From Acholoe squamosa (taxonomy: Eukaryota > Annelida > Polychaeta > Phyllodocida > Polynoidae): a DNA stretch of 64,000 nt. Under the pieces are notes generated by a model. That model had not been told where the DNA came from. It searched no databases and saw only the letters and a program-made list of their open reading frames with translations. Shown piece after piece: positions 17,736 through 49,632 of the stretch. The stretch lies in the NCBI GenBank assembly GCA_949317995.1, contig OX439052.1:38379932-38443931 (forward strand), in the 5' to 3' direction. Every line of letters starts with the position of its first letter. The first letter of the stretch is position 1. Both the position numbers and the translations under genes were made by a program.

Positions 17736-18767
17736 ATGACAGGCCGACGACAAGGACGTAAGGATTGGCGATCTGCGCAGAACCCTGAGTTTCGGAGGAA
17801 TCTGAGATCTGTGGAAGGAAGACTTCCACGAAGGTGTTTTAGCTGCAGGGTGTGGAGAATATTGGATTTCTCACCTCAACGCCACAGCACGACTCATCTC
17901 CAGCAGCACGGACAGCAGCAGCTAGAGTGCACGATCGCACAGATGCATATCATCAACAGTTAAGTGATTCTAAGAAGTTTATTGGTGCTTTCCTACAATC
18001 TAACATTACTGAATCCTCCACTATTGACATCAGTGCTGGGGATACTGACACTATTAATGTGGTTGTGTCGCATGCTTCTGATTTGAGTGCTAGTATTGAC
18101 TCCATCTGGTCAGTCAGTGTCTCTATCACCAACATGGGAAATGAAAATCCTAAAACGTTAGCTGCTCAAACAGAGGGTTTTACTAGACAGGTTCAACTTC
18201 TGCAGAGTCAGGCAACAGAGAATGTGGGGTATATGAAAGTTTTGGAGGATACAATTGCAAATTTGAATGCTAAGATTAGAGATCTTTCCATTAAAATAGA
18301 ACCTGAACAGCAAGCAGTAGTGAACCCGTTTGCCAGCAGATTGGTGGATTCACAAATGCAAATTGATGATTTAAGTAGAATTGTGGAGAATTGCTTTATA
18401 GATTATAATGAGACCTTACAGCATATGGAAAAGAAACAAGACAATCTGCAATATTCCAAACACAGAGACGCCATTAGATCATTAGGTGATAACCCAAAGC
18501 CCTTCGAAATACCCACAATTTTGAGTACTGCAAAGGAGTTTATTGATGAGTATCAGTCCTATGCCAAGGACATTCATAAAAAACCCTAAGTATTGGTTCA
18601 AGGGTTTATCACAAATTCTTAAGGGAGATGCGTTATCTCTCTATGAGGCCTATAAATCTGTGTACACGGGGAATACTGATTTTGTCAAATTGAGAGAGAA
18701 ATTTACAGCCAGATTTAAGAAGATATCTAAGGATGAGCTAAAGAAGTGTGGTTCTAGGGTAGAGTGA
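17736..18767 (+). pseudogene. gag: Ty3/Gypsy gag, N-terminal and capsid part (decayed)
   Basis: Gag of a degraded Ty3/Gypsy element. An ATG at 17736 opens a basic frame. The main 245-codon frame (17852-18589) then has a long Gln/Asn/Ser-rich region with heptad-like spacing (for example LLQSQATENVGYMKVLEDTI), probably coiled coil. It is followed by KPFEIPTILSTAKEFIDEYQ. The last part continues in another frame (to 18767) with KYWFKGLSQILKGDALSLYE and LREKFTARFKK, the W-x-x-L-x-G-x-A-x-x-x-Y pattern of retrotransposon Gag capsids. The frame break lies in an A-rich run near 18577-18590; another lies near 17870-17960. The C-terminal capsid piece resumes at 19448. The structural role is inferred from the family. 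Confidence 0.7.
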
Positions 18768-19447
18768 CCTTGAGTAGTGCATGTACCCTAAGTCGGCCAC
18801 TTTGCATGTTTATAGTGGCAAATTGAAATTATCAATGACCACCTTAGAATATTTTAAGTGATTAACATTTGGAGAAGATGGGAAGATGCAGCACTTGCAA
18901 TCTTACAATCTTTGGCTATATTTGGTTCATCACCTTCCAAAGGCTGTCAATAAGAGCATGTTTGCGGTTCTATCCATGCAAATAGAAATGGGTTTTAGAT
19001 GATTTGCAAGTCACTTATATTGGATTGCTACTAGTCAATGAGGATAAGCTTGCAATAATGTCTTAATAGTTAAGGGACAGAGGTAGCCTTGACTAAATAT
19101 TGTAAATGGATTGTAAGTACACCCTGTCAATTATCAATAAAGTGGAAATTCACCCCCTTCCTTGCATCAAGTACACAATAGACAATCTCCTACAGAGTAA
19201 TGTGATGTGGATGACTCAAGGTACTGGTGGCTGGCTCATGGTACTGATGACGAAAAATACACTTCACTTGTAAAATGAAGGCTTAAAGGGGCTGGTAGAC
19301 ATGACTATAAGATTTGTAACCTTATTTGCTGGAATGAGAAACACTTAAGGAAAATTTTCATAACTGTTTTTTGATGCCCCACCCATGTTTGCCTAATATA
19401 GAATAGGCCCTAGAAAAAGTTAGAGGTTGCACAGAGGTCGACTCATG
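18768..19447. other. decayed interval inside the Gypsy element
   Basis: Separates the two capsid pieces, so part of it is probably insertion. A short frame near 19120-19200 includes VEIHPLP and IDNLL, faintly like an RT segment, but this is not enough for a call. Confidence 0.3.
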
Positions 19448-19685
19448 GTCACTAATAGGAAACAGCAACCAGGAGAGACAGTGCAGAAAAATGCATCTGA
19501 TATGCAATGCTTGTTAAGTAAATTGAAAGTGGATGAGGAATGTAAACTTGAACTCTACATCACAAATCTCAGGGATGAAATCAGTGATGTTGGGTTAGCA
19601 TAGTATCCTACTTCTGTCATGGCCACAGTTGAGATGGCTGAGATAGAAGAAATTAGGATTAATCGTGGTGTTGTAGAAGTAAAAC
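19448..19685 (+). pseudogene. gag: Ty3/Gypsy gag, C-terminal capsid piece
   Basis: The frame reads QQPGETVQKNASDMQCLLSK then LELYITNLRDEIS and, after a stop at 19601-19603, VMATVEMAEIEE. The P-G-E-x-V, followed by a helix, then F/Y-I-x-x-L-R-x-E-I, is the standard second half of the retrotransposon Gag (Retrotrans_gag) capsid fold, continuing the piece that ended at 18767. It is cut off at 19686 by a hAT-like MITE. Its neighbour downstream, past the insertion, is the acidic linker and NADAR domain, in the place where a Gag zinc knuckle would be expected. No C-x2-C-x4-H-x4-C knuckle was seen. Confidence 0.7.
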
Positions 19686-19842
19686 CAGTGGCGGATTAAG
19701 AGGGGGGTGGGTGGGGGCATGCACCCCCCCTTTTTCCCTGTACTTAACAGTTTACTTAATTCTTTTTACCCTAGAATTTAGCCAAAATTAGGGACTTAAC
19801 AAGGGACACTCCCCTCTTTACAAAATCCTGAATCCGACCCTG
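19686..19842. mobile_element. hAT-like MITE
   Basis: Starts CAGTGGCGGATTAAG and ends CTGAATCCGACCCTG, so the ends form the inverted pair CAGTGGCGGATT / CAGGGTCGGATTCAGG common in hAT-derived elements. AAAAC is present on both sides, consistent with an eroded target duplication. It interrupts the gag remnant. Confidence 0.65.
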
Positions 19843-19859
19843 AAAACTAGATTTGTTGA

Positions 19860-20520
19860 ATCAATTAGGATTAATCGCGGTGTTGTAGAAGTAAAACCAG
19901 ATTTGTTGTATCAGGTCAATATCAAGACGGTGACCTCAAGGACAAGAGCGGCAGGCGGCTAGTGCATTCTTCTCATTTAGAAGATTCTGTCAGTTTTTTA
20001 AGCAAGTTTCTATCATTATTAGTCCAAAAGTTATGCCTATTAATATAAATGTGCACCTTTATTAGGTTTGGAGAAACTTTTCCAATAGACTGTGAACCCC
20101 CCTACCCCCTCTGGCTGTGGTCCATAGGCTTATGTATTAGGGTTCCCACCCCCTTGCATACACACTCATCTTGTGCAAAAAGTGGCGATGAAACCACATG
20201 ATTTTACATTTCTATCTTGATTAACACATGTCAATCAACATTATTGTAGTTTTTGAAAAAAATAAACTGTTTGTCCAGTTTGGGAATAATTCAACTAAGT
20301 TCCTCCAAAATCCAAATGTCTAGATATCAGCCCATCCTACAAAAGATGGCTGATACCAAAGAAAGTAGTGTTGCTACCCCAACCTTTTATTTCACATTTC
20401 ACTTAAACATCAAGTAAGGAACAAATATTTCAAGTTACAAGGAAATCCTTTGTCAATTAATTTTAGGTCACCTGGAGCCCTTGTCATTTTGTGTCAAACG
20501 CGGTGTTGTGAAACCAGTTA
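19860..20520. other. decayed gag-linker interval with a repeated motif
   Basis: The block ATTAGGATTAATCG[T/C]GGTG, followed by TTGTAGAAGTAAAACCAG, occurs before the hAT-like MITE (about 19652) and again after it (about 19863), with a weaker third start near 20498 (CGCGGTGTTGTGAAACCAG). It translates as IRINRGVVEVKP. The rest is non-coding, AT-rich. Confidence 0.4.
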
Positions 20521-20828
20521 AATCTACAAATGAAATTCCTATTGTAGTATTAACTAGACCACAAGTGGAAGTTAAAGACCCCCAACAAGGATGATCAGGT
20601 CTGGCTTTAGCATTATGAACCCAAAGAGCTACGAGAACATAAGAGAAGAGTCTGTGGGCTAGCTGTAAAGAAGGGCTACAAACCTAAATTGGTGGAGTCT
20701 GGAGTGGTTATTAGTAGTGAGGATACTTTAGAAGCAACAGCAGATGGCTCAGGAAGTTTAGGTGATACCGCTGATAATGGGAAAGAGCAGGCAGCAGATG
20801 GTGATACGATACAGGGAAAGAAACACCA
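20521..20828 (+). pseudogene. acidic linker upstream of the NADAR domain
   Basis: One frame reads through HYEPKELREHKRRVCGLAVK, then KGYKPKLVESGVVISSEDTL and a run rich in Gly, Asp, Ser and Ala. A stop at about 20608 and a one-base shift in an A-run near 20817-20823 separate it from the NADAR frame. The continuity of style and direction suggests that the NADAR protein was once longer and probably part of the Gag polyprotein. The HYEPKELREHKRRV segment is basic and unidentified. Confidence 0.45.
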
Positions 20829-20834
20829 GTGGAG

Positions 20835-21467
20835 ATGACCACCCCCAATGGTAAAGGTTTGGGTACTACAGAAGATGTAATTATGAAATCGCCTGGATCA
20901 GTAAGTACTGATGATGAGGATGATGAAGATGATGAAGATAGTACTGAGGTTCACCAGAGGATGACACGGGCAGGCCTCATTTACAGAGGCAAAAATAGTG
21001 CCTTGAGTAATTGGTATCCTTGCACATTCAAAGCTGCTGTGTTAGGAGATACACTAGAGTTCAACAGTGTGGAACAGGGGTACTTTTATTGTAAACTAAA
21101 GGAACTGGGCTATCATCGGCTTGCAGATGATATGATGAAGACCAAGAGTGCAAAGAAAATCAAGTGTAAGCACTATAAAGCGCCACCAGGTCAGTATTTG
21201 CACACAGTCGCAAAGGACTACATGAACACACTGATTAGTGCCAAATATAACCAATGTGAAGGCCCTAGAAAATGTCTGCTGGGGACAGCCTCTATCGTAT
21301 TGATTCAGGGCTTTAGGGACATGATCTGGGGTGGGGGGTATGTATACCACTCAGAAGCTTATGATCAAGGGAGGGTGAAAGGTCAGAATTTGCATGGCCA
21401 ACTAACCATGAGAATCAGGGATATTATTTGGGAGCAGGAAAGAAGTAAGCCACTTATTGTATTGTAA
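20835..21467 (+). CDS. NADAR (YbiA-like) domain protein encoded in a Gypsy element
   Basis: A 210-codon intact frame. An acidic tract (residues 26-35) precedes a NADAR domain at about 48-198. Visible family features: RGKNSALSNWYPC (like the FSNFYP start), LEFNSVEQGYFYCKLKELG with the conserved Glu at 80 (like S-x-E-H-x-x-Q-x-x-K), AKDYMNTLISAKY followed by LLGTASIVLIQ, DMIWGGG at 162-168 (like D-x-x-W-G-x-G), and GQNLHGQLTMRIRDI near the end (like G-x-N-x-L-G-x-L-L-M-x-x-R). The position usually occupied by Glu in L-x-E-x-x-x-D is Gln here (IQGFRD), so activity is uncertain. Known NADAR proteins hydrolyse N-glycosidic bonds, including removal of ADP-ribose from guanine. It lies between gag and pol remnants of one orientation, so I infer it belongs to the retroelement rather than a host gene. 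The start was set at the first in-frame ATG; the real start may be upstream. Confidence 0.75.
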   Translation: MTTPNGKGLGTTEDVIMKSPGSVSTDDEDDEDDEDSTEVHQRMTRAGLIYRGKNSALSNWYPCTFKAAVLGDTLEFNSVEQGYFYCKLKELGYHRLADDMMKTKSAKKIKCKHYKAPPGQYLHTVAKDYMNTLISAKYNQCEGPRKCLLGTASIVLIQGFRDMIWGGGYVYHSEAYDQGRVKGQNLHGQLTMRIRDIIWEQERSKPLIVL

Positions 21468-21852
21468 ATGTGATCATAGCCACTAGTACAAAGGCAAGAA
21501 GTTGATGTGGACGCAGTGATGAAGCTATGGCGTCCCCTAAGGGTCGGTCGCCATAGGTTCAACTTTTGGATACTAAGATTTGGACGTGCCTGGTGTCTGA
21601 TAGGTGAAGTAACCGTGCGATCAGATGCTGCCGCAATTATAGAATTGTTCACCTTTAAATATGAAGATATGTGATAGGTGTAGAATCCACGCCATCACTA
21701 AATTACTCAATCAATTGTTAGGTTTGATATGCATTTCTTCCTTTGCATTTTCTTATGTGCAGAAGCCATGGTGTATAAGATATTCCCATAGAAGGAGCAA
21801 CTTGTCACATAGTTGTAATGCTTGGTGCAACACTGTAGCAGTTATAAAGGTA

Positions 21853-21892
<40 letters not shown>

Positions 21893-22339
21893 ATGTGTAT
21901 ATTCCTAATTATTTCAATTTATTGTTTAATTTTATTTTCTTTCTCATGAGCAGGTGAAATTAATTCTATTATTTTTTTCTCAACTGTAATGTATAAATGT
22001 CACTAATTGCTGTCCATAAATTCCATCAACCCCAGCGGTATCCTATTAAAATAAGTGAAGTCGCTAGAAAATCTGCAGGGAGGGAGGGGATTTTTGTCTG
22101 ATTTGTTATTAGCTGAATTAGAGTAAGCTGACAAAGTCAGTCACCTCATCTACGAGGATAATTTGTGGACGAGGAAGAGTTGTACATTTTGTAATTATTG
22201 CATTACATATAACCTTGTTTTCTTTTCTTGATATTCATTTGAGTACCATATACTCATCTCATGGTCTGTAGTATAAGTCATTTTGTGGAGAAAAAGGGGC
22301 TGGTGATCTCGTCCATAAATTGTCGTAGTTTTGAAGACA
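21468..22339. other. non-coding interval with an AT microsatellite
   Basis: Contains an (AT)n run at about 21851-21884 followed by GTATGTGTATGTGTAT. No protease (D-T/S-G) frame was found here, although one would be expected between gag and RT. Confidence 0.4.
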
Positions 22340-23290
22340 AATATGTTGAAAGTTATTAGGCAGAAGTGACATTATTTGTTTATGTGAGACAAGACTCACC
22401 TGATGGCCTAATAAATCAAGATGACAGATTATTGTATAGGCACGATAGGATTGGCAAAAACTGTGGGGGTGTAGATTTGCAAGATTAATTCCTAACACAA
22501 AAGCAAAGTGTGAAAATATATTGTTGCACAATTAGACCAGAGAAATATTTGCAATAAACTTTTTAGATTTGCAAAATTAAGGAAATTCTTAACACAAAAG
22601 CAAAGTGTGAAAATATATTGTTGCACAATTAGACCAATAATCGAATATTGTTCTTTTATTAATACAAGCTGTAATGAAGATGGTCTAGTTGAAATACAGA
22701 GATTGCAAAATAGAGCATTAAGAATCTGTTTGAGATGTAATATTAGAAGGTATTGTTCAAAGATTTGCATGAAATATGTAAAGTATCTCTATTAGAAAAG
22801 ATGTATAAGAGGTCTAAATTTGTGGTAAATAGGCCACAGGCGTTTGATACAACGTCACAGTATAAAATTGTGTTTGATTTACCTAGAGTTATTGCAAGAC
22901 ATTACAAACGGTCTCCTTGGTATAGGGGAGTGGCTCTCTGGAATGCTACAACAAAGGTCAAATTTAAGGATGAATTAAAGAAAATAAACAATTTAAGGTT
23001 TAAATTAAAGATTGGTTACAACTGAACTTATGAAGCGGGTGTAGAAACTGCGCCGCTTCAACATGAGTTTAATATAAGTTTAAGTTTAAAATGATTTCAC
23101 TTTGATTTGCTTATTAATGTCATTTTGTGTATCACTTGCATTATTATTGTTATCTCCATATTGACATGTGAAAAATTCTACGATAGTTATTGCTATGTAC
23201 GGATTGTCACCCCTTGCTCCTAAGAATGTATATATTGACATTTTTTGTAACCCTTCTATTATATTTTTGAAGAAAAATAAGTAAACCTGG
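22340..23290 (+). pseudogene. LINE (non-LTR retrotransposon) remnant
   Basis: An apurinic-endonuclease-like start is visible at about 22365-22475 as DIICLCETRLT, then RHDRIGKNCGGV after a frame change, the pattern seen in Jockey/CR1-group LINE endonucleases. After an internal deletion the C-terminal end of an RT follows: RPIIEYCSF, EIQRLQNRALRICL (22607-22795) and, in the next frame, SPWYRGVALWNATTKVKFKDE (22753-23025), a typical LINE C-terminus. The non-coding tail ends in GAAGAAAAATAAGTAAA at about 23270-23285, suggesting the 3' end. The catalytic RT core is missing. It lies inside the Gypsy element, same orientation, between the NADAR frame and pol. Confidence 0.75.
22472..22655. repeat. 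92-bp tandem duplication inside the LINE
   Basis: Two adjacent copies beginning TAGATTTGCAA (22472 and 22564), each holding AACACAAAAGCAAAGTGTG and ATATTGTTGCACAATTAGAC. It lies at the endonuclease-to-RT deletion junction. Confidence 0.8.
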
Positions 23291-23332
23291 TCTGCTCTAT
23301 AGCAATATTTAAATGAACCTCAAAGTTCATTA

Positions 23333-24360
23333 ATGCAACGTGCAAGTCCAAAAAAAAAAACCCATCAAATTGAGAAGGGATCTATAATTTGTCTCTACTC
23401 ACTTCGGTTGGAGGAAGATTTTATAGGTCCAGATGACTTAAAAGAACAGTCTATTGAAACATCTGATTTTGATTATAGAGTGGATGAGAAAAATCTGACT
23501 AAGGTCCAGATCACAGAGTTGCAGCAATTGTTAGATAAACATGCAGACACCTTCATCACATCTGATAGTGAGATAACCACTGAATATACTCACAGAATTG
23601 TTTTAAAACGTGATTATACCCCCCATAAATATTATGGCTTATAGAACCTTTCCTGGGAGAAGAGAGATCATGGAAAAACTTCAAAAGGGGCAAAAGGAAG
23701 CTGGTATAATTGAACATTGTAAAGGTCATACTGAGTGGTGTAGTCCTGCATTTCTGGTGGGAAAAGGAAAGGCAGTGAATGGGAAGAGATCATTAAGAAT
23801 AGTTGTCAATTTTAGACATTTAAATTGTCAATTTAAAAATCAAGCATATAATTTACCAAGAATCGATGACACACTCAATACAGTTGGAACGTTAGGAGCA
23901 AAGTATTTCTCCACCGTTGATACTAATTCAGGGTTTTTTCCAAGTACTTTATGTGAGAGAGATAGAAACCTCACGGCGTTTGCCACTCCAGGTAAAACTT
24001 GGAGATATAGGCCATGGGGTGATCATTTGAGTGATTTGGTTGACCTATTTAAGGCTTTCAGACATGCAAATCTCAAGTTTAAGAAACCTAAATGTAGTTT
24101 TGGTTTTAAAACTATCCCATTTTTAGGATTTGTAGTGTTAGAAAATGGCGTTCATCCTAAGCCCAATAAAGTCAAACTGATTAGAGATTTTCCAGTTCCT
24201 AAAACATCTAAACAAGTGAAATCTGTCAATGGTTTAGCAACTTATTATCAGGCATTTATTCCAAATTTTGCATTGATTATTGGACGAGAAAACATCAGCA
24301 GGCATTCAATAAAATGAAGAATTCTATCCCCGATGACGTTGTCTTAAAATAACCAAACTT
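23333..24360 (+). pseudogene. pol: Ty3/Gypsy pol, RT fragment lacking the catalytic core
   Basis: RT of the degraded Gypsy element. The frame at 23333-23644 gives the connector before RT (LTKVQITELQQLLDKHADTF, HRIVLKRD). A frame shift near 23625 leads into 23610-24317: GIIEHCKGHTEWCSPAFLVG, LRIVVNFRHLN, YNLPRIDDTLNTVG, YFSTVDTNSGF. Next the sequence jumps from TWRYRP (about 24012) to DHLSDLVDLFKAFRHANLK, so about 50 residues that should hold the F/Y-x-D-D catalytic loop are absent. FLGFVVLENGVHPKPNK and the thumb/connection to the RNase H start (MKNSIPDDVVLK, about 24313) follow. Integrase and most of RNase H are missing. It cannot be an active RT. Confidence 0.88.
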
Positions 24361-25139
24361 TTCTATTGAACATCTCTATTGAACTATGATGTGTCCTCAA
24401 ATTTGTATATTAAAATCATTCATGATGTGCATAGAAGTCATAAAATCTGTATATGTATTACTATGGGACATTTAAATCATGGATTTGATGAGTTTGCATT
24501 TAATTTCATTTGGAGGGGATGGGGCAACTCATCACCCTCCTTGCCTACTCCTGTGGCTGGCAGGGGGCTCTTGATCACCGTCACATTTAAGCCACGGCCC
24601 ATGGGCTCATAAAACTGACAATAAACCCATGTGTGCCTCAGGCAACTTGCACTGGTGACCAGTGGAGTTCTTTTGTGGGCAGTTGACCCATTGGTCAACC
24701 CCCACATTAAGCACGCTCCGGCGTCACCCTCCAGTGACCACCAGGGTTACTTAAGCCTGTGATACAGCCTCACAGCTTTATTCGCTTACAGTCATCCACA
24801 CACTGTTACCACTCCAGAAGAATTCCACAACTATTCAAGTCCTTTTTAAGGCTAAGTCCTTCACTTGCAATTGCAATCAACCACTGTCAGTCTGTGATTT
24901 AATATTCTGTCAGCTACTTGGTACAACAGCAGTGATCATGTTGGCTTCAGCTGCCCTAGTTGCATTCTGGTAAAACGCTTCACTAAGTGATGGATACATG
25001 TGTACACTCTCTATACAAAGATAGAGAACTTTATATATTGCAGGAACTGAATTACTACCCTTAACCTGACACGGCTGAACAGTGGGAGCAAAGCAGCTCA
25101 AATATATTTGACTTGATGTAAACTAAAGCTGGATATGTA
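24361..25139. other. unassigned interval within the degraded element
   Basis: Where integrase would be expected there is GC-richer, unrecognised sequence (for example CTCACAGCTTTATTCGC near 24770). No HHCC or DDE integrase motif was found on either strand. Probably deletion plus insertion of other repeats. Confidence 0.4.
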
Positions 25140-25141
25140 TA

Positions 25142-25747
25142 TGTGACCCATCACGGTGAAACACCCCATTTTTAATTCCCCATTTGGCCACCAGGGGGCA
25201 TTGGAGGGGCAAAATTAATCTAAAATCATTATAAAAATATGTTAAGTTATTTTATTATGCAGAATTCATTGGTCTCATTTAAAGTGCACCGTTTTCAGTA
25301 GAAATGGCCCGTATTTGGATGGTGAATTGAACATTTTTCATGAAAAATCAACCTATATGCCTGTTCCTGGTTGCTATAGCAACAATTCCAATTATCAAAA
25401 CTTGCAGGATTTTATGCCAATTTTCCAGATATTCACCAAAAACCCAAAACTGAAAACAGAAATGAAAAATTCCTCAAAGTCAAAATCTATGATAAAAATC
25501 ACCATATTGTTATGTATTTTTTTATGAAAAAGGCTGATTTATTGTGTGTTAAGACATTATTATGGTTAATAATGTATTTAGAGCTTGATCCTCAATTTCA
25601 AATATGAATAACAACCTGCTTTCAAGGAGGGGTTCTGACATAACTACTGGGAAAATTTAAGCCAATGATGTCTCATTTTAAAGATCTTGAGATGAACTTT
25701 GATAAAGAATTTCCCTGCAGAGGGGTGTTTTTGCTTGCCTGGTCACA
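25142..25747. mobile_element. TA-flanked MITE, TGTGACC ends
   Basis: TGTGACCCATCACGG at the left and GGTCACA at the right, with AACACCCC/GGGGTGTTTTT subterminal symmetry, bordered by TA on both sides (25140-25141 and 25748-25749). 606 bp, AT-rich, non-coding. TA target duplication and short ends fit a Tc1/mariner-like non-autonomous element. Confidence 0.65.
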
Positions 25748-37301: not shown

Positions 37302-37675
37302 TGTAGAGGTACGTATTGTTTAACCATAGAGTTGGGTACCGTCTGACGTGGCGGGTGAGTCAAGTCGTCGGACGTTCCTCAGGTTCCTGATAGGTGGCAG
37401 CACCGATCCGGGTCTGTGGGGACATCTGACGACGAACACCTGGGTCCTTATATAAAGCCCAGGGCTCAGCCGCTACGTCAGAGGCCCTTCTAGCCTCCGA
37501 AGAATGTAGACCACCATTAATCATTATAAGCTGCCCCTTCTTTAATATCGGGTAGCTGTGAGTGTGCATTAGTAATAAATCTAACCGTTGGCATACACTT
37601 GAAACACCGTCTTACTCTTTCTTTCCGAATCGTAAGACCCGAACCCCCAGGTCCGTAAGGCCACAACCCCTTACA
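37302..37675 (+). repeat. 5' LTR
   Basis: 374 bp, TG...CA. It contains TATATAAA at 37449-37456 (promoter) and AATAAA at 37574-37579 (poly(A) signal), placing R between about 37480 and 37600. It matches the 3' LTR at 366 of 374 positions by hand count. Confidence 0.95.
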
Positions 37676-37693
37676 CTGGTGCAGTGACCAGTT
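37676..37693 (+). other. primer-binding site
   Basis: One base after the LTR, TGGTGCAGTGACC begins with the TGG expected opposite a tRNA CCA end. Its first 11 bases recur at 17678 before the other gag. The tRNA was not identified. Confidence 0.6.
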
Positions 37694-37700
37694 AATTCTG

Positions 37701-40601
37701 GTGTATAGCCCGGACGTTATAACGTCCGAACGGCTAGTACATGGGTTAGATAGCCTCGCGGAAGCTAACCCAGCAGGGCAATTAGTTGCCCAGGAGAATG
37801 GCAATGGATCATTAGTGCTCCAAACCCATTCGAACTCCCAAGATGCGGAATCTGCATCTTGGAGAGATCCCGAACCCCACTATAATGATAGTGAGGAAAA
37901 TCTACCAGACTCTGTACGACGTGAACAGTCCATACAGAGACAGGGTAACTTAATAGGCCAACAATCACTTGTTGACGAGTTAAGTAATTCGATGTTCGAA
38001 GTTGGTGGTAGTACTAATCCAGAACATCCGGCACCAATGCCAAAAAGGGTAACATTCGGTGAACTACCTTATAGATTACCCAGACCCGGACTACCAATAT
38101 TAGATTACAGCGCTATAGATGACGACTTAACTTATGCGGTACCGGAAGGTGAGGAATTTAAACGACCGGATGTCCTGTTGTTAAATGAAACCTATGTAAC
38201 TTTGAACGAGAACCTAAATACCTTGGTCAAAGCTAAAGATGAAGTATTCCATGAAAAACTTCAGCTGGAAGAGGACCTGACTGGCATGCGAAGTGAATTC
38301 GAAGCCAGAAGGAGTGAGTACATGAAGGAACTCGAAAATGAAGAACTAAAACTTCAGGAAATGAGAAAGTCATTCAATAAAGAATATGACAATAGACACA
38401 TTCGTATCCAAACATACATAGATACGAATGATCAACTAAGTCTTGATAAGGCAAAATTCGAATCCGAAATATGCCATTATCAGAGCCAGTTAGAGAAATT
38501 GAAACTTCAGTGTAGTAAACAAGCTGAAGACAATGAAACCATCCGGGTAGGCATTATAGCTTACAATAAACAACTGGAGGAAGATAGACAGAAACTCACG
38601 AATGAGCTTCAGGAATTGCAGACTACTGCAATAACCTTAGACAAATACGTAGAAGCCGCCCAACTGACTATAGGTACTATAGATCCAGCTGTGGTGTCTA
38701 CAATGTTGGGGAAAACATCCAAGGATGCAACTCCAATTAGATACAACCCATTCGTAGACGACGGGGCTGATAAGAATGTAGTATCCGGAATCTATAAGAA
38801 ACCGGATAATACCGCAGGTAATGGAAACGCACATACACCAGCAACTCCTGTGCTGGATACAATAGGTCCGGCACCGCCAATACCAGATTTGAGTCATAAA
38901 ATTAAAGCGACTCACGATAGTGCTACTGGTGCTAACAATAATACACCAGTAGCACAACCGAGAGTACCGGGACCACCGAGACATATGTTAACACCACCTT
39001 CATATTTCTCCCAACCCGGCCACAGTACACCAGCAGGTCCAAGATTACCGAACCCACCTTCGGGTGAAGGTAATGGTCCTAATGATGGACGTTTTCTAAG
39101 ACCAAACCCGCCACAAAACAATGTTAATGGCGGTACGTAGCAACCAAGAACAACTTCCTATGGATATAGATATAATTATAATCCGGCAGGAAGTAGTAAT
39201 TACCAAAATGGTAATAACTATAATCAGGGATGGAATCAAAATAATTCTTACCCTAGGTATGCATCTTCCGGAACAACTGGAAATGCCGGTTACAGTGGTG
39301 GATGCCCTAGCGGTTCATCCGGACACTATCCTAACAATGGTCCACCAGGAGGAAACCCTCCGGGCGGCCCAGGAGGATCCGGATCGGGAGGATCAGGATC
39401 GGGAGGAGATGGCAGGAAGCCAAACAGAAGAACTTCCATGCCTGCAGGGATGCAAACCATCTTTGATAGAATCCAATGTATTCAAAACCTTGGCATTGAC
39501 TGCTACCGAAAGGGAGCAGATGACATGGAAGTCATGAACTGGAGCATGCGAGAAGCAGATAGACTACGCGGATGTAATAATCCGGCACGTAGACAGGCAC
39601 GGATACCCCCTCCATATGATTCCAATGATCCATGGAAGGATAGGTATCAAGCTTTTGTCGACGAAGTCAATTGTAGTGGCTGGACAAAAGAAGAAGCTCT
39701 GCCCTATTTGATCTGTTGGTTGAATAAAGGTGGAAAAGTAGCCCTCAATAAATGGAGAGCAGCATACAGAATATACGGCACCTATGATCAATTGGTCGAA
39801 TGTGCCGCATACCTATTCGGATCAATCGTTAGAGAAGATCCATGGGTAAGCTTCAAGAAAAGGACACAGAAACCTAAAGAATCTCACAAGGTCTTTGGTT
39901 TGGAGCTACAGGACTTGCTATCAAAAGCGCGTCCGAATTGGGCTCATGACGATGACTGCTATCTACAAGAGTTGTTTATACAATTCTACAATGGATTGCG
40001 GGATCCAGATCACAAACAAGTAGTTTGGGATTCTTGGAAGGATGACACTTCCTTCAGTGACCTGTTCATATCATTTACATGACATGAAGAAACGATTGGT
40101 AGGTCTAGGACCTAACCCGGTAAGAGCAGCTCTGTTTCAATACGGAGGTACACCTGCTCCGATATATGAAACTTCCCAGTTAGCCCCGGTCAATTCTCAT
40201 GAGGCTGATGAGGAGGATGAATATGTCTCCGATGAAAATGGAGAATATATTGGATCAGTCCAGGTAGCTGGAAAGTATTACCGACAGAAGCGGTATAGGA
40301 AGGTACATTCGAGAGGAAGGGGAGGATCCGTTGCTGGTAAAACAGCTTCCGGACCGACTCAATCTGGCAATGTAACCTCTATGGCGAAGCCAACTGTGGC
40401 AGCTGCTGTTGCTCCACTAATATGATGGAAACATTAATAGCCGGATTAACAGAAGCTCTAAAGAGACCGAGAGTTGATAAATCTCAAAGGAGATGTTTCA
40501 GATGCCAGAAACTGGGGCATTACGCTCCCGAATGTATGGCTGAGAAACCTGTCCCTCGTAGACAGGAGGGTGTCTCTGGAATAAGTACAGAGGAAAACTA
40601 A
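37701..40601 (+). pseudogene. gag: large Gag polyprotein (coiled coil, capsid, zinc knuckle)
   Basis: About 960 codons, mostly in one frame. The frame is open from 37659, but the first in-frame ATG is only at 37992, so the true start is unclear. Order: acidic N-terminus; coiled coil at about 38190-38680 (LVKAKDEVFHEKLQLEEDL and following heptads); Pro-rich region to 39137; TAG at 39138-39140; same frame resumes with an Asn/Tyr/Gly-rich then SGSGGSGSGG linker; capsid at about 39438-40080 (WKDRYQAFVDEVNCSGWT, WRAAYRIYGTYDQLVECAAY); shift to the +1 frame near 40070 and back near 40410; and finally CFRCQKLGHYAPEC, an exact C-x2-C-x4-H-x4-C knuckle at 40494-40535. Stop at 40599. It packages the element RNA by family role. 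The two opposite frameshifts are decay. Confidence 0.85.
39138..39140 (+). other. in-frame TAG in a readthrough-type context
   Basis: TAG is followed by CAA-CCA, which fits the CAR-YYA context that promotes stop-codon readthrough in some plant viruses. The same frame continues open for more than 900 bases on the other side with clear Gag sequence. It could be programmed or a simple nonsense mutation. Confidence 0.4.
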
Positions 40602-40615
40602 GGAGGGGTCTCCCG

Positions 40616-43600
40616 ATGGGCAAAGAAGGGGATCCCAGTGACAAATCTTGCCATGATATCACCATCCGGGATGATAGTTCGCATGTAGTAGCAAACTCGC
40701 CTAGCACCGAGGTGGTTGTAGACACCCGGAAGGTTAGGGAAGCTGATATAACAGGTGCCACGGGAGCACAGGGGAAACCCAATATCAGTAACGAGGCAGG
40801 CGGCTATGCGTTAGCCAGGGTTGGTAGTGCCCACCTGCCCCCGGGTCATCCTTGTCTGGAATACCTGAAAGGATGTGGATCGACTCCTGTTGTGAACAAT
40901 GACGTTCCGATCATCACGGATATGCCCTCTGTTTTATACAGAAGGCGGTGGTATGTTTGCCTTACTGTTAACGGAAGATCTGCCGAATTTCTCATGGATA
41001 CGGGAGCTAGCCACTCCTGTATCTCCAAGAGGTTCTATGATCTTATACCGGATGAACATGATACTCTCAAATCTGGAGGAAGTGCTCAGACGGCCAATGG
41101 CAGTACCTTGCAGACGTATGGTAGAACTTGTGTGAAGCTACAATTGGATGGAGTACATGACTATGTCATGAGCGCCACCGTTGCGGATATAGCAGATGAG
41201 GGGATACTCGGGTTGGATTTCGCATCCCTGTATGGAGTTGTGTTGGAACCCCAATCAGGAGTGTTGAGTGTGAAATACCCGTATCCTGTAAAGGTTAGAT
41301 GTGTACTGAGACAAGTGAGCAGTATGGCTAGTGTAGCACACACTGTGCGAATCCCTCCGGGAGTAGCCTTTGATGTGCTAGTAAGAAGTGATCCTGGAAT
41401 GCGCAATAAGCCTGCAGTGATAGAACCTGATGTAGCTACTCGGTCAAGTATCGGATTAATATCTGTAGACACTATCGTAGCAAATGCGTCCTGGTCGGTA
41501 GTACCTGTCTCTAATACTGGAAACAGTACTATCTATTTGAAAAAGGGACAAGTTTTTGGAAACGTGACCCTTTCGGAAACTGTAACGGATAGTAAGTTAA
41601 ACTTACAAAAGGTAACAGGAAATGATGAAATTTCGGAAGACTTACTCAAGTTGTATGAAGAAACTTCATTAGAAGATCAGGAACACCGGAAAGAGTTCTA
41701 TGATATGCTCTGTCAGTATAGGACTGCCTTTGCCAAACCTGGTGAGAAACCAGGTACGACAAATGAGTTAGTACATAAAATAGATACTGGAGATGCGAAA
41801 CCCTTTAAAATACCGTATAGACAGTTACCTTTAGCAAAAAAAAGAGTAGCTGAAGAGGAAATAAACAAGATGTTGGAACAGGATGTAATAATGCCTTCCA
41901 ATAGCCCATGGAGTAGTCCTGTGTGTATGGTAACGAAGAAAGACGGTACTATCCGCTTTTGCATAGACTACAGGAAGCTGAATGGAGTAACGAAAAAGAA
42001 TTTGTATCCATTACCGAGAATAGACGAAACCATTGACTCCTTAGGAGGAAACAGTTGGTTTTGTACCCTAGATTATTTGGGCCGCATCATTAGTGATGAA
42101 GGAATAAAAGCTGATCCGGAGAAAATCGAATCAGTTACGAATTGGAATAGACCTAAAGCACCCAAAGAAGTGAGGTCCTTTTTAGGATTCTGTTCCTATT
42201 ATAGGGAATTTATTCCGAATTATTCTAGAGGTAGTTACCCATTACAAGCAATAGCTAACTGGACTCCAGGAAGTACCAAGGAGAAATTTCCTTGGACGCA
42301 TGAACAGGAATCTGCTTTTCAAAAGCTGAAATACCTGTTCACGAGTACTCGGGTATTACAATATCCGAATGAAATGGATCATTTCATACTGGATACTGAT
42401 GCTAGTAATGATAGCATTGGTGCAGCTCTCTCGCAAGTCCAAAATGGGAGAGAGGTACCTATCGCCTTTGCCAGCAATACACTGAGCAAAACTCAGCGCA
42501 ATTACTGCACAACCAAAAGAGAGTTGTTAGCAGTAGTCGTATATACTAAGAAGTTCAAACATTTTCTATGGGGAACGAACTTTACTTTACGTACGGATCA
42601 CTCCTCTTTAAGATGGCTACTGAACTTCCGAGATGCTGAAGGAATGTTAGGCTGATGGTTAGCCCATCTATCAGAATATGGGCTTGAACATCACCAGATT
42701 CAGCATAGACCTGGAGTGAAGCATTTAAATGCTGATGCTTTATCTCGAATACCAATCCGGAAATGTGATAATCCGGATTGTACTGATTGTGGAGCTCATA
42801 GGGCAGTGTTAGCAGGGATTCGAAGACCATTCGAACCCCTAGTTGCCAGTATACTGGATTGGTCTATGGATCACATACGACGTTTCCAGGAAGCTGACTT
42901 GATAACTGCGCAGCTACTGCAATTAGTACCAAAGGGTATACATCCAGTTAGACCTGAGGTCTCTCTGGAAAATCGAGAAATGAGAAGGTTTCTTGCTCAA
43001 TGGACCGAGCTTGAAGTCCAGAAAGGCGTGTTATACCGTTGGAAGCCATGTAATAATGGTGAGAAAATCATGCAAGTGGTGATACCACATGCCATGAGAC
43101 ATGACATTATGTACTTCTGTCATGGACATCGGACCAGTGGTCATTTCGGAAGGAAACGCTCGTTAGCACGACTTTCCAAGAAATACTACTGGCCTGGCAT
43201 GACAAGAGACTTGCAAAGATGGGTAATCACCTGTCCGGATTGTTGTAAAAACAAACCCGGACCCGGGATGGGCAAACTTCCCCTATCCCAAGAACTTTTT
43301 GGAGTTAGATTCGCAAGAATTGGGGTAGATATCATTAGTGGATTGAATACAACCGCTAATGATAATACCTGTATGATGGTAGTGTGTGATTATTACACAA
43401 AATACACTAAAGTATTTCCACTACCGGACCACAAAGCAGTTACTTGTGCCGAAGCCTTTGTAAAAGGTTGGGTACTAAGTTTCGGTGTACCATTAATGCT
43501 ACACAGTGACCAAGGCAGAGAATTCGAATCAAATCTCTGCCAGGGTATGTGCGAATACTTAGCTATTTGTAAGACTAGAACCAACCCGTATAGGCCACAA

Positions 43601-44410
43601 AGTGACGGATTGGTAGAAAGGTTCAATAGAACCCTTATCCAAGTTCTAAAGTCACTCGTCAATGAACACATGGACGACTGGGATGAGCAATGTCATTTTG
43701 TGACACATGCTTATAACAGTACGGTACATTCAAGTACAAATTGTACCCCGAACCTTTTAGTATTCGGAGAGGATCTGATAATGCCTGCCGACTTAGTATT
43801 TGGAGTCGTAGGGATGGACCTGGAACTACCTTGCCATGTAGTTTTTGTGGAATGTTTAAGAGACAGATTTAAAAAAGCATATGAGTCTGTCCGAATTGAT
43901 TTGGAGAAAAGTGCCAAATGGCAGAAAGCTGGATATGATACCTATCTAAAGCATCGAAAATTCCAATCAGGAGACAGAGTTCTAAGATTACATGAACCAC
44001 TTAGACACATAAAATTAGCGTCTAATTGGGATGGTCCCTTCACGGTAACACAAGTTATCAGTGATTGTACCGTAATTATTAAATCTGACCTTGGTCGACT
44101 TTACAAGTCAAATGTGGCTAGATTGAGGAAATGGTCTGGGAGGGAGACCTCCACAGAAATGTATGGTGAAGGTTCCGGAAAGATCCTGAACCCGAATCGT
44201 CGGTTGACCCCTTGTGACCTCGCGAGCTTGTGGGGAAATGACGTCACGAAAGCTGGCCTGTCGCCATATTGTTTTTCGGTAACGTTCAAGGCGGACGAGT
44301 GTACTCCCCTCCTTGGATTTTGCCATCTAGGAAACCTTTGGTGCGCCCTCAGAGTCTGTCTCTCAGTAGGCGCCGTAAAAGCCGGAAAAAGGAGTAGTTT
44401 ACTCCCGTAA
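40616..44410 (+). pseudogene. pol: Pol polyprotein: protease, RT (core deleted), RNase H, integrase
   Basis: 1264 codons in one frame with one internal TGA (42653-42655). It starts at an ATG 15 bases after the gag stop, in the -1 frame. Protease: FLMDTGASHSC at about residue 125 (Asp at 40997) and GILGLDF. RT: PFKIPYRQLP, SPVCMVTKKDGTIRFCIDYR, YPLPRIDETIDSLGG; then WFCTLDY joins directly to LGRIISDEGI at about 42075-42085, in frame, so roughly 110-120 residues including the catalytic F/Y-x-D-D loop are missing. RNase H: LDTDASNDSIGAALSQ (about 42390), TKRELLAV, LRTDHSSLRWL. Integrase: HHCC finger (about 43100-43245, CPDC), then D at 43328, D at 43508 and E at 43616, i.e. D-x59-D-x35-E. Chromodomain absent; a GPY/F motif (WDGPFTV) at about 44030. 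The TGA is a CGA-to-TGA type change, typical of CpG decay. Confidence 0.95.
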
Positions 44411-44424
44411 GCGATTCCCCAGTC

Positions 44425-47368
44425 ATGGCTGAGGAATCCGTAGCTGCAGCCAAGCTATCCGGTGACCCGGATAAGCTGACTCCGTCCGCAGAAGCTTTTC
44501 CGGAAGCTTTGTCACCTGTTACACAGGAAGAGAGCGAGATGATTGACGTGGAGGAACCCACGGATCGCTCGTTCGAGGAGAAGCTGGCCTCATTCTCACT
44601 GAATGAGCCAGAGAAAATGCTGTCTCCACTCCCACCCGAGGGATCCGGAGGGGCTACGAGTGCTGAACCCGCAGCGACTGGGTCCGAGACCGCACAGGTC
44701 GACGGACCGAAGGACCAGTGGAAGCCAGCAGTGGCTGACCCGTTCCCTGCAGAGTATGATGGTCGCTACCTGTACGTCCACCAGGAACTACAGGCACAAG
44801 TGACCTATGCTGACGGTACACCAGTTAGGTTGGACCCGAAGGTGAGGATAGCTATCGAGGGCGTCATGGTCCCCGAACAGCTGGATAGGACGCCTCCCGA
44901 ATGGCTCCGAGACTGACCGTGGTTCCAACGGGGACTCATGGTGGACGCTGCTTTCCGCGAAGTAGTGTATGAAGCCAACAGAGCTTTCCCGCTCAGAGGA
45001 TATCCGAAGCCGGATAAGACCCTGTGGAACGTCAAGGCGACGAACATTGATTGGGTAGGCTGCGTCTCGGAACCCGAGGGGCAGACTTACCCACGTCCTT
45101 GTGCCACCCGGCCCCAGTACCGGACCACGAAGGAGTTTCGGGAAGCCGCTGCCAACTTTGAACAGTGGGATGACGGTTACTACATAACCGAGCAAGAGTT
45201 AGTGGATGTTCAAAACAATTCGCTAACAGGCATGAACCGGAGTGCAGCCCTTCGGACGGTTCTCGTCCGTCGAATGACTGCAGAACAGGAGGCCCAGGAA
45301 GAGGCTAAGAGGGCAGCGGAAGTACCCACACCTCCTATCCCCGACCTGAAGCTTGCCACCCGAAGCACAGCCGGTTCTGCATCCGCCACCGGCAGTACTA
45401 CCACCCCGGTAGAAGCCTCGACCTCCAGCGCATCCGGAACCCAGGAACCGGAGGAAGACTGGAAGGTCAGTAAGAACAGGAGGTCCGCTGCTCGGAAGCT
45501 CAAGCATCTACCGGATTCTGCTAGAGCCGAGCCGAAAGCTAGCACCTCAGCCACTGGTAGTACTGCCATGGAGGTTGAGTCGTCAGACGAGGAGTCGGTA
45601 CACGAGTCCTCGGTTGAGTATGATGAGAAGGCCACCCCATCTACTCAAACCGAGGCTGAACGATGGGCTAACGCCAAATCCGGATTCAAAACCCGGATTC
45701 CGACGTGTTTCTCCGACTGTGCCTACGGAGTAAAGAAGGACGGCTCCACCCTATATGCCTGCCCGGACTCAGTCAATAAAAATAATGAGTCAGATGATGA
45801 AGATTGGATGCGTCTTTCGGACGAGGACCCCAATCCGGGCAGCCTATCGAAAGATGTGGCTTATGCTAAACCACACCGAAGGGTATTACACTTATACCCA
45901 GAGGAGAAAGCTGCGTTGGGCTCTTGAGAAGTGGTACGGTGACGACCAGAAGTCCTGTCCCTTCTCTATCTGCCAGGATGCGAGTGATGTCTCGGTCCGG
46001 ACCTGGAGTACTCCAGCCCGGTTCCAAAGGCATCTGGTAGAGGCCCACTTCCACCATCACCCGGTTTACATTTGTGATCCGAGTTATGGTAAGAAGGGCA
46101 AGAAGTGCACTACGAAGGTTCAATATAGCCGACGTAGCGATCTGGCGAGGCACCAGAAGAAATGCCACGCAGAAGGTTTAGATGGGGCTCGGAAGTGTAT
46201 CATGGAGCTTCATCAGGAACTCATGAAGGAGTTCGACAGTCTGAGCGAGGACACTTGGTCTAAGATCCGACCAGGGGACCAAGTCCTCTGCGAGGTTCCG
46301 AAGACCAAGGATTCGAAACTCTGCGCAAAGATAGTCCTGACTCCTGGAAAGGGTAAGCTGGACATGCACGAGTCTCTCTGGCAGAAATGCGAGGAATCCG
46401 GCAAGGAGGGAAAGAGAGCTCGTGAAAGGAGCAGAAGGGATCAGAACCGTGGTGGTAACGGTAATGGTCAGACCACCACTGCTAAAGTCAGAGCAGATGA
46501 CCTCTCCAGGTCTCCTCTGGCTCGGCACCCTCATGAGCAGGTTCAGGGCACTCCTGTGTTCAAGAAACCCGAACCTGCCGGATACGCTGGCGCAGTATCA
46601 AAGCCTGGGAAAGTTAACCCCCGCAACTTCCCGTCCTTGACCCAGGGACCTGGACCTGAGAGCCAGACCTTGGTCGTTGGAAAGGGTGGTCGACTTGTTC
46701 CCAAGAAGACCTTAGCACCTGCTGCCACCGGATCCGCATCCGCTCCAGCCGCCACCCCAGTCAACTTCACCCCGGAGCAGTTAAATCTTTATCTGCAGAT
46801 GGGGCTGAAGCAGAACCAGCCTCCAACCTACTGTATGTCAACAGCAGGCGTGTCCGGAAGTCCAACACCCGGAAGTGGTCCTCAGGCCGCATCGACTCCC
46901 CCCAAGGCTGTCGCTGCACCAGTGAAACCAAAAGACGCCATTACCATTAAAACCGGTAATGCGGAAGTTTGGTTCGAGAAGTCTCGCCAGGGGGAAGCAG
47001 ATGTCCAGAAGGCCATCTACACCCACTGGGAGAAATGTGTCCGCGAGAAGGCGACAGAATTCCATCAGGGTCTTCTTAATGATACCCTGTTGTGCATGAA
47101 GGAGGTTGCGGATGCTGAAAAGCAGCGCCTCGAGACCCTCATTCGGGACGATGTAAAGTCCCAGGAGGAGGCTGCCGCAGCTGCCCAAGAAAAAGCAGCT
47201 ATGGACGTACACGTCTTGGAGAAACATGTCAAAGAAGAAATCACCCGGAATACCAACTTGAACACCAAGTTCATGAGGGTATTCGGAGTCGATCTCGATG
47301 AGTGGGACGGCACTCCCGAGTCGGCTCTAGCTCTTCTTAAGAAGAAGCATGCGAAGAAATCCGCCTAA
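44425..47368 (+). pseudogene. third ORF in the env position, zinc-finger and coiled-coil protein
   Basis: About 980 codons starting at ATG 44425 in good context. 44425-45927 is one frame with a single TGA at 44914-44916 (again CGA-to-TGA type, since the same frame continues with PWFQRGLMVDAAF). It shifts to the next frame within 45755-45927 and runs to 47368. Order: acidic N-terminus; conserved-looking globular part (YLYVHQELQAQVTYADGT, GYPKPDKTLWNVKATNIDWV, QWDDGYYITEQELVDVQNN); Ser/Thr/Gly/Pro linkers; Cys cluster TCFSDCAYG; two C2H2-like fingers at about 45956-46170 (CPFSIC ... RFQRHLVEAH; then CTTKVQYSRRSDLARHQKKCH); a basic linker (KRARERSRRDQNRGG); and an Ala/Glu-rich coiled coil (about 47090-47250) ending KKKHAKKSA. 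No signal peptide or membrane segment, so it is not an envelope. The product family is unknown to me. Confidence 0.7.
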
Positions 47369-49248
47369 GCATGCTACGGGTTATTTTCTAAAATTTTTTT
47401 TCTCTCCACTAAATAACCAGATATAGTCTTTGCGGAACCCTACAGGTCTGCGAATGTCTTTCATTAGTATATGAACACCTGTTCTTTGTGTTCCGGGTTC
47501 CTTTTATGACCAGCCTATTGTATGATTCAGGCCGTATGATTCTTATTGTACCCTGAATAGTCTATTCGGATTCAGAACTTCACTTATAAACAATCCGATA
47601 GTAGACTTGCTGCTGTCAGACGTATCCGCATGCCGGTTCCAGACTTCTGCTGCTATCTGTGCTAACCACTATACTAGGATGGACTTTACGATTTACCTCT
47701 ACATTTCACCTATACTCCCGAATGGACTTATACTACATGTTACTACTACTTCCGGACCAGCCTATATGGGACTTTTTACTTATGTCAACAATACTTAAAT
47801 GGATTAGGATTCTACACTGTTGACAAAACCGGATCTACATTTACTTCTACTCTACACCATTCGGATATACTTATGAACTATAGCACTTCCAGAGGATTGT
47901 GGGTAGCTGCCCCAAATTCATCTACCGTGTTCACTTTAATAACCAGGAATCATAGACTTTAGCACGTCCATCCCGTGGTTAGCTGACCACACTTACCTTC
48001 TAGTATCCGGAAAACTACAGCAGAAGACTCCAGCAGCACCTACCATTTTTTTATATTGTACATAATGTCACATGTCTATTTTTCTATAATGATATTTGTA
48101 TGTGCATATTGACATTGTAGTCATAACTTACTATATATTGTGATACGGGTATATATATATATCTATTAGTACGGATCTCAAATTACTGTTCATATTCATA
48201 ATATAAGATCCGTTAAACTACACCAGAACGTACATATTATTGTCCTGCGAAACATATGGTATCATAAATATATTAATCTGGTGTTATAGAGGTTATTTGG
48301 TACACGGTGATATCATATATATTATCATATTCATAACTACACCGTGATTTTTTTCTTTTTCAAGTGTAAAATACAAATGGTTCTACTCGTACTACTCACG
48401 GAATCCTTAACGGATTCATATGGTTATATGTTATGTTGATACATAAGCAAATGTCCATGACCAGGGAATAAATTTGCATCGTATTCACCGAGGTGAGGCT
48501 GTCCGTATTCAACGATGCCTTATAGGCAGAGTTGAATGCGGACAGGCCTCACCGAGGTGAATACGATGCAAATTTATTCCCTGGAATGGACATTTGCATT
48601 TATGTCATGGCCTAGGGGGTTATTTTGCCTTTAAATAAAGAAAAACAGCTCAGATCTGTTCAAAATCCAAGATGGCGGACACCCATTGAATACAGACCCA
48701 TTGTATTCAATGCCCCCCATTGAATACGGCGGTTCTAGTACTAATCTATAGTGACGGTCGTATCAGCCATGACATAAATGATTATATGTCATTAGATAGT
48801 GTAGTTACTTTTAAAGTCTTTTTCAAGACTATATAATCAAATGTGTTATTAATAACTATAAACGCATATGGATGTTATTATGGGATTTATTTAATATTAA
48901 CAGTTCAGTTACACATAACTGTTACTATCACATGTATACGAATTATGATACTTGTCCTATTACTTATACCGTAAACATGATATGTTATTCTAAAGGTATA
49001 ATAAGCTGATTAACAGTTTCGATACATACAACTGTTATTCATTCAAGTAATTCGTATCATATTACAACATCCAATTTATTATTATGTAACTATATACACT
49101 ATCAGAATATATGTATATGACATTCGAATCATATTTAACTTGGTGTTAATGTTATATCTATGGTTGTACCTCTATTACTAATGGTTTAGACAAATAGAAA
49201 TGTTATCCTAGTAATATTACTATAACTATAACACCCTCCTAAATGTCT
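47369..49248 (+). other. long AT-rich 3' non-coding region of the element
   Basis: About 1.9 kb without a meaningful frame. It contains a 163-bp hairpin (48441-48603) and an AAGATGGCGG motif (48669-48678), a short palindromic CATTGAATAC/GTATTCAATG cluster, and an outer inverted pair CATTTATGTCATGGCC (48597) / GCCATGACATAAATG (48766). Part of this may be a later MITE insertion at about 48441-48780. Confidence 0.6.
48441..48603. repeat. 163-bp hairpin in the 3' region of the retrotransposon
   Basis: Left arm 48441-48512 (AAATGTCC, CAGGGAATAAATTTGCATCG, TATTCACCGAGGTGAGGC) pairs with right arm 48530-48603 with few mismatches. The loop is about 17 nt. It is very unlike the neighbouring AT-rich sequence. 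Confidence 0.85.
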
Positions 49249-49258
49249 GGGGGAGTGG
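49249..49258 (+). other. polypurine tract
   Basis: GGGGGAGTGG directly abuts the 3' LTR, as expected for plus-strand priming. Confidence 0.7.
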
Positions 49259-49632
49259 TGTAGAGGTACGTATTGTTTAACCATAGAGTTGGGTACCGTC
49301 TGACGTGGCGGGTGAGTCGAGTCGTCGGACGTTCCTCAGGTTCCGGATAGGTGGCAGCACCGATCCGGGTCTGTGGGGACATCTGACAACGAACACCTGG
49401 GTCCTTATATAAAGCCCAGGGCTCAGCCGCTACGTCAGAGGCCCTTCTGGCCTCCGAAGAATGTAGACCACCATTAATCATTATTAGCTGCCCCTTCTAT
49501 ACTATCGGGTAGCTGTGAGTGTGCATTAGTAATAAATCTAACCGTTGGCATACACTTGAAACACCGTCTTACTCTTTCTTTCCGAATCGTAAGACCGGAA
49601 CCCCCAGGTCCGTAAGGCCACAACCCCTTACA
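49259..49632 (+). repeat. 3' LTR
   Basis: 374 bp, TATATAAA at 49406-49413 and AATAAA at 49531-49536; see the 5' LTR. Followed by CATC. Confidence 0.95.

Follow-up and report, generated by a model that had tools for sequence, protein, structure and literature searches.

The NADAR domain encoded in the window, a 64,000-nucleotide stretch of the Acholoe squamosa genome (C18:38379932-38443931), is almost certainly the 3' part of a decayed LINE (non-LTR retrotransposon) ORF1, and the LINE copy was inserted in the pol gene of a Ty3/Gypsy element. As the best explanation of the case as a whole, we favor, with a probability of roughly 0.55, a LINE ORF1 NADAR that is nested here in a Gypsy element and that would act in its LINE family as an eraser of guanine-linked ADP-ribose.

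The open frame in question (20805-21467, on the plus strand, as are all features of the LINE copy and the Gypsy relic described below) comprises 220 codons from stop to stop, or 210 from the ATG at 20835, and has the landmarks of NADAR proteins. Indeed, it matched the Pfam family PF08719 with an E value of 2.2e-18 and a score of 67.5 bits, against a curated cut-off of 35.1, and the match covers residues 63 to 209 of the 220-codon frame (NADAR domain, 20991-21431). When the predicted fold (mean pLDDT of 89 and pTM of 0.85, modeled with a 28-row alignment) was used for a Foldseek search, only two of the 17 matches listed had E values of ≤0.001, YbiA of E. coli (2b3w; E = 8.1e-6) and the NADAR of Phytophthora (8bau; E = 1.3e-5). 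The same two structures were the ones found in the PDB at E ≤ 0.01 with a profile from an alignment that included YbiA itself, and 8bau (E = 1e-7) and 2b3w (E = 1.9e-5) were found again when the profile was built only from the window's LINE family and YbiA was left out. With the window frame as a single sequence, the PDB search gave no significant match and a protein-database search gave 0 matches at E ≤ 0.001 among 1694 candidates. The profile search of the protein database retrieved 27 proteins among 1889 candidates, and two of them, P0001 and P0002 (54 and 47% identity to L045, a LINE elsewhere in the genome), are near the window's family. P0001 is a 184-amino-acid NADAR protein from a 12.4-kb ENA contig; given this degree of identity to the L045 NADAR, the LINE NADAR type of the window may occur in other organisms. 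Phage homologues could be aligned over most of the window NADAR (best tblastn E value, 4e-9) and E. coli YbiA was aligned too; a scan of viral contigs found no relative. A sequence-only reading of this DNA had recognized the 210-codon frame by its NADAR landmarks and had proposed a comparison with the NADAR profile; the profile score and the fold match to 2b3w and 8bau bear it out. The frame is a genuine NADAR domain that is carried by a retroelement and is not a plain host gene.

The sequences on both sides of the insertion belong to a Gypsy relic. Remnants of gag are present at 18444-18756 (89.9% DNA identity to the Gypsy copy L052; tblastn match to the gag of a further copy, L053, at 18452-18574, E = 1.7e-9) and at 19451-19688 (91.6% DNA identity to L052 486-723), and the two are joined directly in L052. 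These pieces gave no Pfam match above the cut-off but could be aligned with gag sequence of related Gypsy copies. The part of pol that immediately precedes the insertion and lies between protease and RT is found at 20421-20554 (tblastn to L053 Pol residues 169-213; 20485-20551 is 95.5% identical to L052 1159-1225), and pol resumes at 23361-24364 with the linker and an RT whose palm is partly deleted (tblastn to L053 Pol from residue 217, E = 5.8e-110; 23359-24011 is 88.8% identical to L052 1241-1893). The RT remnant matched the Ty3 RT 4ol8 with an E value of 1.8e-22. Thus, the NADAR frame does lie between Gypsy gag and RT remnants of the same orientation, as had been noticed before. This position and orientation would agree with a NADAR encoded by the Ty3/Gypsy element itself between gag and RT, which was the carrier named in the sequence-only reading, and a NADAR in Gypsy Pol does exist in Ectocarpus (PMC12477816). 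But the site was empty, and NADAR was lacking, in three of the three Gypsy relatives read out of a longer list of copies, and window 20555-23360 aligns to a LINE. In L052, the closest Gypsy relative listed after the window, the flanks are 15 nt apart, compared to 2.8 kb in the window. L053 and L054, for which the RT search gave identities of 74 and 73%, are uninterrupted at the insertion site; residues 169-213 of the L053 Pol correspond to window 20421-20555 and those from 217 on to the sequence that starts at window 23357, and the insertion point is between protease and RT. No tblastn match to NADAR was detected at E ≤ 1 in L053 and L054, and the only match in L052 was one of 13 residues on the opposite strand (E = 0.37). 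A Gypsy-encoded NADAR at the window is ruled out by the empty site in the three relatives read, and we consider such an origin extremely improbable; the NADAR belongs to ORF1 of a LINE. Since this LINE was inserted in Gypsy pol, the gag and RT remnants flank the NADAR by accident and not as parts of a fusion. LTRs of the Gypsy copy were found neither in 15 to 28 kb nor as a fitting pair in a self-comparison of the whole window. The gag region of the relic has two more interruptions relative to L052, at 18757-19450 and 19689-19862, and the latter is bounded by 38-bp direct repeats (19651-19688 and 19863-19900).

The LINE copy at 20555-23360 was delimited by collinear blastn matches, its junctions, and tblastn. 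Five blastn blocks (20555-20711, 20883-21467, 21987-22427, 22473-23060, and 23272-23360) are collinear with L045, beginning in ORF1 and reaching the A-run at the 3' end. The copy is truncated at its 5' end and lacks about 2.1 kb from the middle of ORF2 (L045 5530-7646), and only the start and the C-terminal end of ORF2 are retained. The surviving ORF1 segment 5' of the NADAR (20555-20835) is in another frame, frameshifted, and has one internal stop (blastn; tblastn of L045 ORF1 residues 436-488 at 20554-20712). The acidic linker and the NADAR in the 220-codon open frame (20805-21467) are the 3' end of ORF1 (tblastn of L045 ORF1 residues 554-768 at 20838-21464, 71% identity). They are followed by the ORF1-ORF2 spacer with the start of ORF2 (21987-22427; 70.7% identity to L045 5055-5529), by the C-terminal end of ORF2 (22473-23060; blastn to L045 7647-8218, and tblastn), in which self-comparison revealed a duplication of about 70 bp (22472-22539 and 22564-22636), and by the LINE 3' end (23272-23360), which is 87.8% identical to L045 8594-8683 and has the same terminal sequence, with a terminal A-run at 23350-23360. 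A further blastn match, window 25504-25741 to L045 9123-9364, falls beyond the LINE in both sequences and was disregarded. The defined 3' end with an A-run, the 5' truncation, and the lack of LTRs (no direct repeats were found in L045) are hallmarks of LINEs. The window junctions showed no clear target-site duplication. Judged by eye, about 4 nt are missing, compared to L053, where the two Gypsy flanks meet again. The acidic linker, which had been thought to continue from Gag, belongs together with the NADAR and all of 20555-23360 to the LINE inserted in the Gypsy element. A host gene with introns is ruled out for the window copy, which sits within the LINE copy. This LINE copy is dead, being frameshifted, truncated, and changed from Glu to Gln at a catalytic position.

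The window contains a second LTR element, which is young and 12.3 kb long (37302-49633) and whose 375-bp LTRs (37302-37676 and 49259-49633) are 97.9% identical. Protease, RNase H, and integrase matches were obtained for it, and its RT palm is seemingly deleted. Extra ORFs are located downstream at 44398-47368, and two of them were scanned without a Pfam match; NADAR was not matched in any of the scanned frames of this element. The end of the window is a tandem array of units of about 69 bp (62689-63999).

The whole assembly (1.48 Gb in 63 contigs) was searched for NADAR with the window NADAR, with PF08719, and with the NADAR of another LINE, L062. At least 150 places were found in each case (the best 150 from 1977 first-look candidates, 3224 candidates, and 2678 candidates, respectively); the three place lists overlap, and the counts are not additive. 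With the window NADAR, the best place after the window itself was 79% identical, and many places were in open frames, the longest with 768 codons. In L045, L047, and L048, an ORF1 with a C-terminal NADAR precedes a same-strand ORF2 with endonuclease and RT, which is the anatomy of a LINE. A frame with RT motifs was present downstream of the NADAR on the same strand in 12 of the 14 longer stretches read; L046 had only the endonuclease part and start of ORF2 downstream, and L060 gave no ORF2 match. Pfam scans found NADAR in all 10 ORF1s scanned (of 14) and RVT_1 in all 8 ORF2s scanned (of 12), 5 of which also had an endonuclease family above the cut-off. In 10 of the 14, ORF1 ends with the NADAR; C-terminal tails are present in L056, L057, and L058, and an SGNH-like part follows the NADAR in L049. 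GDSL/SGNH-like frames, for which the Pfam matches were below the cut-off, lie between ORF1 and ORF2 in L048 (4649-5296) and L062; frames of L057 and L061 resemble them by eye, and L061 and L062 each seem by eye to have two in a row. Several LINE families have such frames in addition to NADAR, either between ORF1 and ORF2 or, as in L049, within ORF1. Upstream of the LINE in L046 (oriented), an exact 244-bp direct repeat was seen (1-244 and 1776-2019), the second copy of which ends at the LINE 5' end. Two places, L007 and L008, have a canonical NADAR (183.8 and 169.3 bits) and fall outside the LINE groups in the tree; they are likely host NADAR genes.

From the window's family, 29 loci were fetched, which were the best scoring and not a random sample. 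The N-terminal part of ORF1 was kept in 26 of them, and ORF2 sequence was found within 1.5 kb downstream in 24. The DNA identity of the NADAR part to its nearest copy was at least 98.5% in 29 of the 29 loci and at least 99% in 25, so that the copies fetched are young. An intact ORF1 of the family consists, in this order, of a coiled coil (seen by eye and in weak matches), an RNA-binding-like middle, the acidic linker, and NADAR, and its ORF2 of endonuclease and RT. The ORF1 middle matched LINE-1 ORF1p weakly (2ykp/2yko, E = 0.0012; 2ldy, E = 0.031; profile A5), and the Pfam family Transposase_22 was not among the families listed for ORF1 (best 25 of 75).

In the NADAR of P. nicotianae, the residues around ADP-ribose include E43, K50, E125, D130, and W133, and in the C7 NADAR of E. 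coli, changes at the E43, K50, and E125 positions impair or abolish function, with E88A doing so only slightly in vitro (PMC11543638). The window frame keeps the conserved Glu (E43/E88) as E90 and the Lys (K50/K95) as K97 in the 220-amino-acid numbering. At the position of the YbiA-type catalytic Glu (E125 of the P. nicotianae NADAR), it has Gln168, encoded at 21306-21308, according to the alignments, the alignment of the family profile to 8bau, and the role reported for this residue (PMC11543638). The profile alignment placed the Glu of the window's family at the E125 position of 8bau. The Gln flagged in the sequence-only reading is, therefore, at the YbiA-type catalytic Glu, and among the LINE copies tabulated it is peculiar to the window: all 31 other family copies and all nine other LINE NADARs have Glu. 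The catalytic Glu of the YbiA subfamily is thus a feature of the window's LINE family that is absent from the window copy. E43, K50, E125, D130, and W133 are all kept in 34 of 34 family rows, which represent 31 distinct loci because L045, L046, and L047 repeat L016, L024, and L018. The nine other LINE NADARs all have both Glu residues, and their Lys is K in seven and R in two; W133 is replaced by F or M in four and D130 by H or C in two others, so that some LINE lineages may be altered in their NADAR. The residue table left out L009, L010, L011, and L013 as well as the repeats L012 (= L061), L014 (= L062), and L015 (= the window). If the LINE NADAR only bound ADP-ribose or RNA without cleavage, it would be an RNA-binding or targeting module of the ORF1 protein, and the changes at W133 or D130 in six of the nine LINE NADARs outside the window's family (family A) could be read in this way. 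But all 43 LINE rows of the table (40 distinct loci) have the pair of catalytic Glu residues and K or R at the Lys position, which is more than binding requires and makes a purely binding module improbable.

Conservation was also evident at the level of codons. The pN/pS of the NADAR was 0.15 to 0.52 in 10 of 10 pairs and in each pair was below that of the ORF1 N-terminal part; since synonymous sites were saturated in all ten pairs and the pairs are not independent, the values are only a bound. Judged from these substitutions, the NADAR in LINE ORF1 is under purifying selection. Together with the catalytic residues that are kept, the low pN/pS indicates that a NADAR predicted to be enzyme competent is maintained in LINE ORF1.

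In a NADAR tree of 23 rows, the window groups with L045, L047, L048, and L060 (100/100). The label "LINE" needs four changes in this tree, two of them forced by well-supported branches; several rows are on long branches, and the count may be too high because the unclassified L010 and L011 fall among the LINE rows. An RT tree of 12 rows recovered the groups of the NADAR tree ({L045, L047, L048}, {L056, L059}, and {L057, L061, L062}), and shared descent within these groups is supported. L049 and L050 are on very long branches in the RT tree and differ from the rest in their RT motifs. Going by motifs and branch lengths, NADAR appears to accompany at least three kinds of RT in this one genome. 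By eye, we take most of the ORF2s, including that of the window's family, to be CR1/L2-like and that of L050 to be L1/Tx1-like. Exchange of ORF1 between LINE lineages has been proposed, and the ORF1s of CR1/L2 are modular (PMC4120745). NADAR might accordingly be a passive passenger that is spread by LINE amplification and has no function for the element, as would fit modular CR1/L2 ORF1s that are possibly swapped between lineages (PMC4120745), but purifying selection over saturating divergence and the occurrence of NADAR with RTs that are very far apart speak against this, and we regard it as very improbable.

What could an active NADAR do for a LINE? NADARs take ADP-ribose off guanine in DNA (PMC11543638) and RNA (PMC11833690), and LINE ORF1 proteins have an RNA-binding role (PMC4120745); taking both together, we infer that the LINE NADAR may clean the RNA or cDNA of its own element. 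The sequence-only reading had likewise suggested that a retroelement could apply NADAR to its RNA or cDNA. The ORF1 protein would bind and chaperone its own RNA, and the NADAR appended to it, a predicted working ADP-ribosylhydrolase, would strip ADP-ribose from guanines of the element RNA or the first-strand cDNA. Thereby, host ADP-ribosylation would be unable to block reverse transcription or translation. On our analysis, there is an even chance that the LINE ORF1 NADAR has this role of erasing guanine-linked ADP-ribose and keeping the element's reverse transcription and translation free from host ADP-ribosylation. Alternatively, the LINE NADAR could be active on substrates other than nucleic acid, such as free ADP-ribose derivatives or riboflavin intermediates. 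The conserved catalytic residues are compatible with this, YbiA acts on riboflavin intermediates (PMC11543638), and phage NADARs have been proposed to target mostly small ADP-ribose molecules (PMC9503650). But the fusion to ORF1, a class of RNA-binding proteins, points to nucleic acid, the NADARs reported as tested in PMC11125620 and PMC11833690 all cleaved guanine-linked ADP-ribose, and macromolecular targets have been proposed for the NADARs of animal RNA viruses (PMC9503650). We therefore consider small-molecule substrates unlikely and prefer the cleaning of element nucleic acids. The host guanine writer assumed in the sequence-only reading is not supported by the search for DarT, which gave 0 matches in the genome (1 of 14 control genomes gave a match). 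For PARP domains, 54 candidates yielded 37 matches (none of the 14 controls matched), with no sign here of guanine modification by them. That the NADAR hydrolase was recruited by, or passed among, at least three distant LINE lineages and kept active as a counterdefense against host guanine ADP-ribosylation of retrotransposon RNA or cDNA is a tentative proposal, which we rate as rather doubtful.

Contrary to the earlier view that no retroelement-borne NADAR had been described, a NADAR is on record for Ectocarpus, in Gypsy Pol, and a single sentence of the same paper mentions one in the ORF1 of several Crassostrea gigas Tx1 LINE families (PMC12477816). This was the only such report in a literature search conducted mostly by title and start of abstract, without preprints and with few subscription papers. 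A word search of the main text found no mention of NADAR in a survey of ORF1 of the Jockey superfamily (PMC4120745) or in a bivalve TE survey. The C. gigas Tx1 LINEs (PMC12477816) also have NADAR in an animal LINE ORF1, and L050 has an ORF2 that looks L1/Tx1-like by eye and a C-terminal ORF1 NADAR; in contrast, the window's family and most others here have an ORF2 that looks CR1/L2-like by eye, and NADAR goes with at least three RT kinds in the one genome studied. The Ectocarpus Gypsy element (PMC12477816) likewise bears a NADAR of the YbiA family, but as a Pol domain of an LTR element and not as an ORF1 domain of a LINE. In invertebrate RNA viruses, too, a NADAR is encoded in the polyprotein, so that a selfish RNA-based element of animals provides it in cis (PMC9503650); unlike the LINEs, these are positive-strand viruses with RdRp polyproteins and not retrotransposons. 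The type II (CC-RRM-CTD) ORF1s of L1, CR1, and L2 (PMC4120745) may share with the window's family the coiled coil and an L1-ORF1p-like middle (the weak 2yko/2ykp match), whereas none of the five published ORF1 types, as they are described in the main text of PMC4120745, has a NADAR. The DarT1-NADAR and YarT-YbiA toxin-antitoxin systems (PMC11543638, PMC11125620) have the same enzyme fold and kind of catalytic residues, but they are bacterial operons with a partner writer, and no DarT match was found in the genome here. New in this study are the occurrence of NADAR, within one genome, in LINEs whose RTs are distinct, the conservation of its catalytic residues, the selection on it, and the correction of an apparent Gypsy fusion.

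The window illustrates that a nested insertion can mimic a domain fusion. NADAR is found in unrelated RNA-based selfish elements, namely, brown-algal Gypsy elements, oyster Tx1 LINEs, invertebrate RNA viruses, and now LINEs with several kinds of RT, and the recurrence of one enzyme in unrelated selfish elements points to a host pressure that they share. We know of no measurement of an animal genome defense by ADP-ribosylation of RNA or DNA. If the pressure is such an ADP-ribosylation, these elements would expose an animal genome defense, and the LINE ORF1-NADAR proteins would be probes for the modification and its writer.
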